DNA of 64,000 nt from Spirulina sp. SIO3F2 (lineage in GTDB: Bacteria > Cyanobacteriota > Cyanobacteriia > Cyanobacteriales > Spirulinaceae): contig JAAHHN010000008.1 in NCBI GenBank assembly GCA_010672165.1, positions 1 to 64,000 on the forward strand, in the 5' to 3' direction. A program made the translations under genes and the position numbers. The notes below the pieces were generated by a model. It did not search any database. It saw only the letters and a program-made list of their open reading frames with translations, and had not been told where the DNA came from. Of this stretch, positions 4,241 through 7,335 are shown in pieces. The stretch's first letter is position 1; the number at the start of each line of letters is the position of its first letter.

Positions 4241-4468
4241 TTATTCTTCAACATCAACCTCCAAAAATGCTTCTAGATCAGCACCTGCTGTTTCCCATTC
4301 GGCTACATTTTCCTGGGTGACTGGAGCCGCGTTGGTTTGTGGCTCAGGGTTGTCTAATAGTGTTTCTAGTTGTGCTAAAGACTGCTGAAAGGCAGCATCA
4401 GCGCCACGTCGCTGTTCGGAGAGTTGAGGATCAGTTTGATTCATCACAGTCTCAATGGAGGTCAACAT
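4241..4468 (-). CDS. Small acidic protein, unknown
   Basis: A 75-residue strongly acidic protein (ends DLEAFLEVDVEE). The first Met may be residue 9 (MNQTDPQLSEQRR, position 4444), which would give 67 residues. The sequence is predicted helical around residues 15-40 and has no transmembrane segment. No family recognised. It lies 76 bp downstream of the membrane-protein gene on the same strand, separated by its own leader region. Composition looks coding, but support is moderate. Confidence 0.5.
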   Translation of the reverse strand: MLTSIETVMNQTDPQLSEQRRGADAAFQQSLAQLETLLDNPEPQTNAAPVTQENVAEWETAGADLEAFLEVDVEE

Positions 4469-5329
4469 TAATTGATAAAAGTCCAGGAGCGAGTGCTCAT
4501 GACAGGATAGCTCAGCAGTTTGAATGAGTTTTCTCTAGGATACTCAATCAATCCTTGAATGACAGGATAAATCGGCCGAATTTATTGCGAGTACCAGAAG
4601 AATCAACTAAGATAGCGTGCAGATTTTTCTCTGTCTATACCGGAAGAGAGAATATTAAGAAGCTCCCTTAGCTAACTATTGTTTTAGGCTAGACTCGTTT
4701 TTAGGATTAGGGGTTAACCCCTCTACTCTGAGAACAGTAAAGATGAGGATAGCTTATGAAATGATTCTGTCTATGCATAAGTCTGGTGCATTGTGTGATG
4801 GAATGTCTATCTGAGCAGTGACAATTGGCTTAGGCTTTCTGCTTAGAGCATTAGTGGATAGAGTTGTGTCGATTAATTGGATGAGAAGCAAGCCATAACT
4901 CTGAATACCGAAGCTTACACAATCGCACATTCACAATGCTGATACCAAGACAGTGCTTTGTTAGATCCCTACGTATTATGTTTCCCTGTCCACAGCACAG
5001 GTATATTTCTCACCTGTTTTTGGATATAACGGCCCGAAATCCTGTCTATCTGTTGGGAAGAATCTAAGCTCGGGTAAGCACAATGGGATTAGATAAATTT
5101 GCTCTATATAGAGAAAATTCCTGAAGCTCAAGCATCAAGGAATTAATCACAAAATCAAGGTCATTAGGATGATGGCTTATATTTCTGAAGACGTCACTAG
5201 AAGTCATATCCTGAATGAATCAGAGCGTTGACTCTACGCCAGCCAAAAAGCAATAGTCTGTGGCAGTAATCAGCATCAACTTATCCTTGAATTTCCTTCC
5301 AGAAAAGCAAAAAAATATTGAGAAAAAGA
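4469..5329. other. Long intergenic region upstream of patX
   Basis: About 860 bp without a convincing gene. It holds the palindrome at 4709-4722 described separately, the repeated word ATGACAGGATA at 4497-4508 and 4558-4569, and otherwise AT-rich unique sequence. Open frames crossing it are short, lack ribosome sites and do not resemble proteins. A non-coding RNA could lie here, but I see no known RNA motif. Confidence 0.5.
4709..4722. promoter_or_regulatory. Candidate HetR-type operator (AGGGGTTAACCCCT)
   Basis: This is a perfect 14-bp palindrome, AGGGGTTAACCCCT. Published HetR sites such as that of Anabaena hetP contain GAGGGG-N5-CCCCTC with the same half-sites. It lies 690 bp upstream of the proposed patX start and is the only copy I noticed in the window. 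Binding by HetR is inferred from the half-site match; a chance palindrome is possible. Confidence 0.4.
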
Positions 5330-5335
5330 TCCGGA
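5330..5335 (+). promoter_or_regulatory. DIF1-like box (TCCGGA) of the patX promoter
   Basis: TCCGGA occurs 63 nt before the ATG at 5399. A DIF1 motif within 69 nt of patX is reported for known patX genes. A six-base word alone is weak, but the distance agreement supports both the promoter and the 5399 start over the ATG at 5369, which would fall close to the expected transcript start. Confidence 0.5.
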
Positions 5336-5398
5336 ATAACTCGGCGCAGGATCGAAAACAGCAAGTAGATGTCTGTCCTTTCTTTCTCGATCTTGACC

Positions 5399-5620
5399 AT
5401 GTTCAGAAGTTTAACGATCCTCATTGCCCAATTTTCAATTGTAGCGGCAGCATTACCTGCAACTGCCGCCACCCCAGAAATTCATCTGGCGTCATCTGAG
5501 CAAGTCCAATTGGTTGGACAATCTTCAGATTATCGCCGTCGCCAAGAAACGAGCCGTCGGGGCAGTGGTCGCCGCGAAATGCTGGGTGTCCAACATCCTG
5601 TAGTGGAGACCTTTAACTAG
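5399..5620 (+). CDS. patX: PatX-like RGSGR peptide precursor
   Basis: PatX proteins are small inhibitors that act on HetR, the master regulator of differentiation and filament patterning. The 73-residue product has a hydrophobic export-like N-terminus (MFRSLTILIAQFSIVAAALP, Ala-rich cleavage region near residue 24), a polar middle, and RGSGR at residues 54-58 inside the basic context ETSRRGSGRREML. The known family has the same two conserved parts. An in-frame ATG at 5369 would add ten residues; I prefer 5399 because of the TCCGGA box at 5330. A strong hairpin follows at 5660. No NtcA palindrome (GTA-N8-TAC) was seen upstream, as expected outside heterocyst formers. The hetR gene is not in this window. 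Confidence 0.75.
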   Translation: MFRSLTILIAQFSIVAAALPATAATPEIHLASSEQVQLVGQSSDYRRRQETSRRGSGRREMLGVQHPVVETFN

Positions 5621-5659
5621 AACCATTCATTAATGAGAGTCGTCATCTCATCGTCCAAG

Positions 5660-5705
5660 CAACTCAGCCCATGATTCTGTAAATGATCGGGGCTGAGTTG
5701 TTTAT
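5660..5705 (+). terminator. Rho-independent terminator after patX
   Basis: CAACTCAGCCC (5660-5670) pairs with GGGCTGAGTTG (5690-5700), an 11-bp perfect stem with a 19-nt loop, followed by TTTATT. It is 40 bp beyond the patX stop and fits termination on the plus strand. Confidence 0.75.
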
Positions 5706-5865: not shown

Positions 5866-7335
5866 TTAATTCAACACCCAATTCACCAGCGTCCGAACGG
5901 GATAGCCCGTTGCTCCAGAATTCGTCACATCATTTTCTTTATCAGCCCAGACGGGTCCAGCAATATCCATGTGAGCCCAAGGGGTGTTTTCAATGAACTG
6001 CTTGAGGAAGAGCGCGGCGGTAATCGAGCCACCTGCACGAGAACCGGCATTTTTCATATCGGCTAGTTGGGACTTCATAACCCCGAAATAAGACTCCTCA
6101 AGCGGCATTTGCCAGAACTTCTCGCTGCTTTGGTACGCAGCAGTTTTGAATTGTTCTGCAAGGGCGTCATCGGTGCTCCAAAGGCCACCAATGTCATTCC
6201 CCAAGGAGATAATACAAGCGCCAGTTAAAGTTGCTAGATCAACGATTGCATCCACCTCCAACTTTTCTGCAAAAACTAGAGCATCAGCTAGAGTTAGCCG
6301 CCCTTCTGCATCAGTGTTATTCACCTCAATCGTTTTGCCATTTGAGGCAGTAAGAATATCGCCGGGGTGCATGGCTCGGCCGCTCACCATATTTTCAGTA
6401 GCCGCACTGATAAAATGCACTTCTACGTCCGGCTTGAGCTGAGCGATCGCTTTAGCTGCCCCGAAGGTCGCACCTGCGCCCCCCATATCCATCTTCATCA
6501 TGTCAATGCTACTGCTGGGGCCAACTTTCAAGTTGAGACCACCGGAGTCAAAGGTTAAACCCTTACCGACGATCGCTAGCTTCTTACGGGGAGTACCGTT
6601 GGGTTTGTAGGTCAGGTGAATAAATTTAGGAGGCAAGTCAGAAGCCCGTGCCACCCCCAAATATGAGCCCATGCCGAGAGCTTCACAATCCGCTTGCTCT
6701 AGGATTTCGAGTTCGAGGCCATAATCACTGGCCAGTGATTGGGCAGTCTCGGCCAAGGTAATCGGCGTCACCGCATTCGCAGGGGCTGCTACAAGTTCCC
6801 GAGCTAAAATCACACCAGAGACGATTGCCTGCGCTTGTGCTAGGGCATCCGCCTGAACTCCCAAACCCAGGAGGTCGATGGCTTCAAGTTTGAGGGCGGG
6901 TTCTTTTTCCGATTTAAAGCGATCGTCCACATGCAACGCCAGATGACAAGCTTCGGACAACACTTGAGCAGTTTGGGCCATATCACTGGTGCTCGACAGC
7001 GCGATGCCTAAGGTTTTAACCCGTTGCTGTTTCGCCAGACGGGTAATCGCGGTTCCTGCCATGCGCACCGCTGTTACATCATAGTTGGCTTGCTCACCCA
7101 AACCCACCAGAATAACTTTGCGTACAGCGCTGTTGCTGCCAACGCGAGTGCTGGCTTTGCTGCCACTCTTGCCCTCAAATTCTGTTTCAGAAATAAGTTC
7201 AGCGATCGCCCCATTAAGCTGGGCATCGAGCTGGGCTAAGTCTCCCGTTAGCTCGGTTTGGTCTTTAAACAAACCAAGGGCGATCGCATCGCCCGTCCAT
7301 TGCAACAGCGGGGTATCTACGGTCTGAATCTGCAT
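5866..7335 (-). CDS. pepA: Leucyl aminopeptidase (M17)
   Basis: This cytosolic, metal-dependent exopeptidase removes N-terminal residues from peptides in protein turnover. The 489 residues show an N-terminal regulatory-type domain and the catalytic half with [15 protein letters not shown] (metal-binding Lys and Asp), MDMGGA, and the family signature [14 protein letters not shown] near residue 340. Length is normal for bacterial PepA. In some bacteria PepA also binds DNA in Xer recombination; nothing here points to that. It is downstream of gyrB on the same strand with a 97-bp gap, and convergent with patX. Confidence 0.95.

Follow-up and report, generated by a model that had tools for sequence, protein, structure and literature searches.

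The genome of Spirulina sp. SIO3F2 contains two unlinked genes for RGSGR precursors, one of which encodes three copies of the pentapeptide, and no detectable nifH. To our knowledge, non-heterocystous cyanobacteria have been thought to have only one such RGSGR gene, and the pair departs from this view. One of the two genes lies within the stretch of 64,000 nucleotides analysed here (the window). Taken alone, it represents a known type of gene in divergent form, and it is the pair that is of interest, although multi-copy or TCCTGA-driven patX genes may already be contained in the work of Elhai and Khudyakov (2018), which would lower the novelty of the pair. We regard it as an even bet that Spirulinaceae use two secreted precursors of HetR inhibitors: a single-copy precursor driven by a DIF1 promoter, and a prohormone-like one with two to four copies, derived from the patX upstream of hetR, whose promoter carries a dyad that is probably a regulator site.

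The RGSGR gene of the window

The sequence-only reading had described a 73-residue open reading frame (ORF) with a hydrophobic N-terminus and RGSGR at residues 54–58, a TCCGGA 63 nt before its ATG and a strong terminator behind it. The features of this region are as follows.

5330..5335, plus strand: DIF1 box TCCGGA, a –35-like element (sequence; common to the genes of relatives)
5354..5359, plus strand: GAAAAC, a poor –10 box at the expected position, 18 nt after TCCGGA (inferred)
5366..5370, plus strand: predicted transcription start (from the DIF1 spacing of patS)
5399..5620, plus strand: gene for a 73-aa RGSGR precursor, type 1, PatX-like (ORF, homologues, coding selection in G011/G012)
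5399..5467, plus strand: Sec-type signal-like N-terminus MFR-SLTILIAQFSIVAAAL-PATA, with the cut likely after ATA (residue 23; hydropathy and inspection)
5555..5584, plus strand: conserved core R-RGSGR-R-E-M-L, residues 53–62 (invariant columns in eight homologues)
5558–5572, plus strand: RGSGR, residues 54–58 (sequence; pattern match 5558–5578)
5657..5703, plus strand: stem-loop with a short U-rich tail, a probable terminator (folding energy)
5866–7335, minus strand: pepA, cytosol aminopeptidase gene, the neighbour of the window gene

The ORF is a real, easily missed gene, because relatives encode homologues of it. The gap that holds it measures 1.4 kb and is bounded by a small minus-strand ORF and by pepA. 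Its product (MFRSLTILIAQFSIVAAALPATAATPEIHLASSEQVQLVGQSSDYRRRQETSRRGSGRREMLGVQHPVVETFN) agrees with the earlier description and runs from a short basic start through a hydrophobic stretch (Kyte-Doolittle maximum 2.27, mean over the best 12 residues) and a putative Ala-Thr-Ala cut site, an AXA cleavage site predicted by inspection, to the arginine-framed RGSGR. An alternative in-frame ATG at 5369 would give a product of 83 aa; we judged ATG 5399 to be the better start codon and 5369 the less likely one, because the upstream ATG adjoins the predicted transcription start.

The DIF1 box was confirmed at 5330–5335, and its distance of 63 nt to ATG 5399 is the longest box-to-ATG gap of the homologue set. 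Transcription of patS starts 35 bp downstream of its DIF1 box, and DIF1 promoters depend on HetZ (PMC7377430); if the patS distance holds here, transcription would begin near 5366–5370. Most relatives show TANNNR 18 nt after the box (TAAAGA, TAAATA, TAGAGA or TATCAG; GAAAAA in G007), whereas the window has only GAAAAC, and this poor –10 box appears to be the weak point of the promoter. As previously claimed, no NtcA site precedes the gene (positions 4401–5420).

Downstream, the hairpin at 5657–5703 has a folding energy of –27.6 kcal/mol, compared with a mean of –12.2 for shuffled sequences (z = –5.95). However, its U-tract is weak (TTTATTGTCG) and a consensus terminator scan did not return it among its matches; therefore, 'strong hairpin' describes it better than the 'strong terminator' of the sequence-only reading. 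Elsewhere in the same intergenic gap, a perfect 14-bp palindrome (AGGGGTTAACCCCT, window positions 4709–4722) resembles a HetR site (GGGN5CCC) but is one base short in spacing. We rejected it as a HetR site on account of this spacing, and such a match is not unexpected by chance at the size of the window; no other GGGN5CCC site was found near the gene.

Homologues and coding selection

Simulation of 40 windows with the dinucleotide composition of the real one yielded 35,739 small ORFs. RG[ST]GR appeared in six of them, and in no case was it accompanied by a hydrophobic N-terminus or by TCCGGA, whereas the real window holds one ORF combining RGSGR, a hydrophobic N-terminus and TCCGGA. Searching for the bare RGSGR pattern in DNA was uninformative, with fewer matches than the reversed control.

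Used as a single query in a BLAST-style search, the window protein led to one clear relative, and profiles were needed for the rest. When 369 genomes of the order were searched with the profile, strong matches came from G003, G005, G006, G007, G011, G012, the source genome and G041; the first seven belong to the window's family and G041 to another. Because this type-1 profile was built from the same eight proteins, their strong scores are expected; beyond them no further strong match was found among the 369 genomes, and for 6 of the 13 family genomes the search returned no type-1 gene.

The sequence-only reading had staked its identification on an alignment extending beyond RGSGR, an intact frame in close relatives and a hetR in the genome. 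All eight homologues share R-G-[STG]-G-R-R-E-[MI]-L (invariant columns R53, R54, G55, G57, R58, R59, E60 and L62), and the Spirulinaceae relatives also have a hydrophobic start. TCCGGA lies 52–58 nt before the homologous ATG in G003, G005, G007, G011 and G012, and TCCCGA lies 55 nt before it in G006. The frame is also kept: of the codons that differ between the ORFs of G011 and G012, 11 are synonymous and 2 non-synonymous, with 11 of 15 changes at third positions. Judged from these counts, the type-1 frame is under purifying selection in this pair. Just before the ATG, 54 of 60 nt are identical (box included), compared with ∼62% farther upstream. The DIF1-driven type-1 gene of G007 (L022:1429-1641) has RGGGR in place of RG(S/T)GR. 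In G006, G007, G011, G012 and G041, a gene for a kinase-TPR protein (L148:785-2824) is convergent to the type-1 gene; this neighbour is absent beside the window gene, and no synteny with the type-1 genes of relatives was found.

Comparison with PatX, PatS and HetN

The window gene has the anatomy of PatX (NF047413): a small protein with RG(S/T)GR (residues 54–58 of 73), a signal-like hydrophobic N-terminus (Kyte-Doolittle 2.27, with AXA by inspection), a nearby upstream DIF1 box and a hetR in the genome whose contact residues are conserved (6/6), so that peptide binding is predicted. PatX genes, in the description of Elhai and Khudyakov from 2018, reportedly carry the DIF1 motif TCCGGA within 69 nt upstream; the distances of 63 nt here and 52–58 nt in homologues fall inside this limit, as had been claimed. 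Compared with PatX, the window protein has a conserved RREML tail and an arginine-rich lead-in, and its gene shares the genome with a second, multi-copy RGSGR gene and lacks both an NtcA site and nifH as companions.

The claim of a patX-like gene therefore stood on anatomy but not on the curated profile, as the window protein gave no match to NF047413 at E ≤ 10. No gene in any of the 13 family genomes passes the cut-off of this model (30 bits), which does accept a gene behind TCCGGA in G348 (77.9 bits) and, in family f2, a gene linked to hetR (L087, 42.9 bits); perhaps the model does not reach Spirulinaceae. Because the window gene would be PatX by anatomical definition and not by NF047413, we name it PatX-like and do not count it as a formal member. 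Since the curated model is blind to both Spirulinaceae precursors, a genome with hetR can be wrongly scored as lacking PatX when current models are used.

The hetR-linked patX genes (GFS31_32390 of Leptolyngbya BL0902 and the L087 gene) likewise encode a secreted single-RGSGR precursor tied to HetR. However, the genes of that lineage immediately precede hetR and, in the genomes examined, stand behind TCCTGA and a dyad, and their counterpart in the source genome is not the window gene but the second precursor gene described below. PatS (NF047415) is also an RGSGR source with a DIF1 promoter, but it has 17 aa, a C-terminal RGSGR and no export signal, whereas the window protein has 73 aa, a signal and an internal motif; it is not a very short, RGSGR-ending protein and gave no NF047415 match. 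HetN shares the internal RGSGR but is a full-size ketoacyl-reductase-like protein, and the window protein is neither full-size nor ketoacyl-reductase-like.

HetR, nifH and the organism

The hetR of the source genome was found at C444:17629 (PF18460, E = 8.3e-38; NF009718, 542.9 bits), away from the window gene, and neither DIF1 nor GGGN5CCC occurs within the 456 nt upstream of it. The encoded HetR is 69% identical to Anabaena HetR and keeps R223, E253, E254, D256, D270 and D278 (6/6), residues that bind PatS6 or transmit its effect (PMC4649674). The nearest named hetR genes come from Spirulina sp. DLM2.Bin59 (80%) and Spirulina sp. CS-785/01 (G005; 77%), and hetR is present in 12 of the 13 family genomes. 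On the strength of these named relatives we take the family to be Spirulinaceae, which NCBI places in the order Spirulinales. No nifH match in the source genome (96.5% complete) exceeded the cut-off of 394. The best match, at 220.9 bits, was rejected as nifH because it falls below this cut-off, and it is probably a chlL-type relative. The organism had been read from its sequence as filamentous, HetR-bearing and probably without heterocysts. The filamentous, heterocyst-free character is well supported by these comparisons, because the closest hetR genes with a name belong to Spirulina and no nifH passes the curated cut-off. HetR residue 254, a PatS6 contact position, is Thr instead of Glu in G006, G007 and G044 (L141, L152 and L206).

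A second precursor with three RGSGR copies

A search for RGSGRRE in the family returned a two-copy RGSGR protein in G004 and G005, and a profile of these proteins found homologues in most family genomes and in the source genome. The source-genome gene is as follows.

G000:C420:5397-5624 (L083:1438-1746), minus strand: second RGSGR precursor, 102 aa, signal-bearing, with three RGSGR copies (profile match)

Its product includes ...NCDRGSGRRDQ...QKRGSGRIENEPSTSKERGSGRLETDPKESA, and the gene lies on a contig other than those of hetR and the window gene. Among relatives within the family, the number of RGSGR copies ranges from two to four. The protein of G006 (L141) has four, three of them within near-identical QTKERGSGR repeats that differ in synonymous codons, and the G007 precursor (L152) combines one RGCGR with two RGSGR. 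The multi-RGSGR gene is directly upstream of hetR in G006 and G007, as are single-copy relatives in families f2, f15 and f23. Because its relatives occupy this position, the C420 gene looks like the hetR-linked patX lineage, here unlinked from hetR. The window gene is thus a further RGSGR precursor of the genome, of the DIF1 type and presumably PatX-like in function.

Proposed mechanism and alternatives

We consider it likely that, as a whole, the window gene encodes a DIF1-driven, Sec-exported and processed HetR-inhibiting RGSGR precursor, one of two in the genome. The small precursor, made from its DIF1-type promoter, would leave the cytoplasm by the Sec route and then be cleaved to yield an RGSGR-containing peptide. 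This peptide would enter the producing cell or its neighbours in the filament, bind the hood domain of HetR and displace HetR from DNA, which is how PatX and PatS act in Anabaena. In Nostoc, PatX is exported and cut by PatP, and its hexapeptide binds HetR (Kd 88 nM) and displaces it from DNA (PMC12756182). The window protein carries the features that this route requires. Paired arginines flank the pentapeptide on both sides in most homologues and are a plausible cutting signal. Because the organism lacks nifH, the output cannot be heterocyst spacing; the likeliest one would be filament fragmentation via necridia, in line with a published conjecture in which necridia and filament breakage are what is controlled (PMC7761841).

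The analysis establishes the gene, its motif and DIF1 box, conservation, selection in a pair of relatives, the intact HetR pocket, the absence of nifH and the second precursor, whereas export, cleavage, transport, binding to the HetR of this strain and the physiological output are predicted. The mechanism is supported by RGSGR with conserved flanks, which recurs across eight genomes (one of them with RGGGR), by the DIF1 boxes of relatives, by the codon differences in G011/G012 and by the conserved HetR residues. Against it stand the missing NF047413 match, the poor –10 box, the longest box-to-ATG gap, the lack of hetR or kinase-TPR adjacency and the result from Leptolyngbya BL0902, in which the effects of PatX appeared largely independent of HetR (PMC11298460).

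The same promoter defects, together with a neighbourhood not common to relatives, could also mean that the window gene is a spare, either decaying or silenced, that contributes little, and that the triple-RGSGR gene performs HetR inhibition. The search gave no type-1 gene for 6 of the 13 family genomes, and RGGGR in G007 indicates that the motif can drift. However, the signal-like N-terminus, RGSGR with all conserved flanks, the DIF1 box and the hairpin are all intact, and the frame is under purifying selection in G011/G012; we hold this alternative to be unlikely. Less probable still, at a small chance, is a secreted RGSGR product that signals mostly without HetR, as the patX and hetR deletion transcriptomes of Leptolyngbya BL0902 suggest (PMC11298460); the HetR pocket residues are fully conserved in the source genome, and the HetR-binding pentapeptide is exact in all homologues but one. 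That the ORF, its RGSGR and its TCCGGA are all products of chance has a negligible probability: RGSGR alone arose in six simulated ORFs, but none had the hydrophobic N-terminus or TCCGGA, and homologues in several genera with the same flanks and promoter spacing already refute it.

If Spirulinaceae do use two such HetR-inhibitor precursors, two promoters and different copy numbers could let a heterocyst-free filament deliver the peptide at two doses or at two times. This bears on the question of what HetR and a peptide inhibitor do in never-heterocystous filaments, and the pair offers a testable system, with respect to which gene sets filament behaviour, whether copy number sets the dose and what binds the dyad.

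A TCCTGA-dyad promoter

The promoter of the second gene usually carries TCCTGA, replacing TCCGGA, at 52–61 nt. Promoters of this type contain the conserved dyad TCCGTATCAGG-N8/10-CCTGACACGGA, whose left arm includes a –10-like TATCAG, and arm complementarity averages 8.9 of 11, compared with 5.2 for shuffled sequences. The dyad was found upstream of L083 1746 (minus strand) and in L074, L076, L141, L152, L185 and others, often upstream of hetR; in the source genome it is degraded (TTTGTAACAGG...CCTGATTACAGA). The left-half pattern matched 73 of 391 genomes, and reversed controls gave 4 matches. We examined 72 distinct placements. TCCNGA stood at the right distance in 47, and an RGxGR ORF follows in 43 of the 47, compared with 2 of the 25 placements without TCCNGA, one of these 2 having masked box bases. 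The combination of TCCTGA and dyad is nearly exclusive to RGSGR genes.

G007 has TCCGGA in the place of TCCTGA, and G122 combines TCCGGA with the dyad. The TCCGGA and TCCTGA types therefore look like variants of one design. The dyad itself is probably a regulator site. Strict matches (0–1 mismatch) in the family were confined to the multi-RGSGR gene, with a single match in each genome that had one, and gave no sign of a wider regulon. A leader RNA hairpin was also considered, but we prefer a DNA operator, because the left arm overlaps the –10 box. In G303 (L201:207 and 824), tandem dyad promoters lie upstream of hetR; the first precedes an RGSGR ORF, and no RGxGR ORF was found after the second. 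In family f15 (L161, L162, L163 and L168), PatS-like ORFs of 30 residues with an exact RGSGR end lie behind a dyad promoter upstream of hetR.
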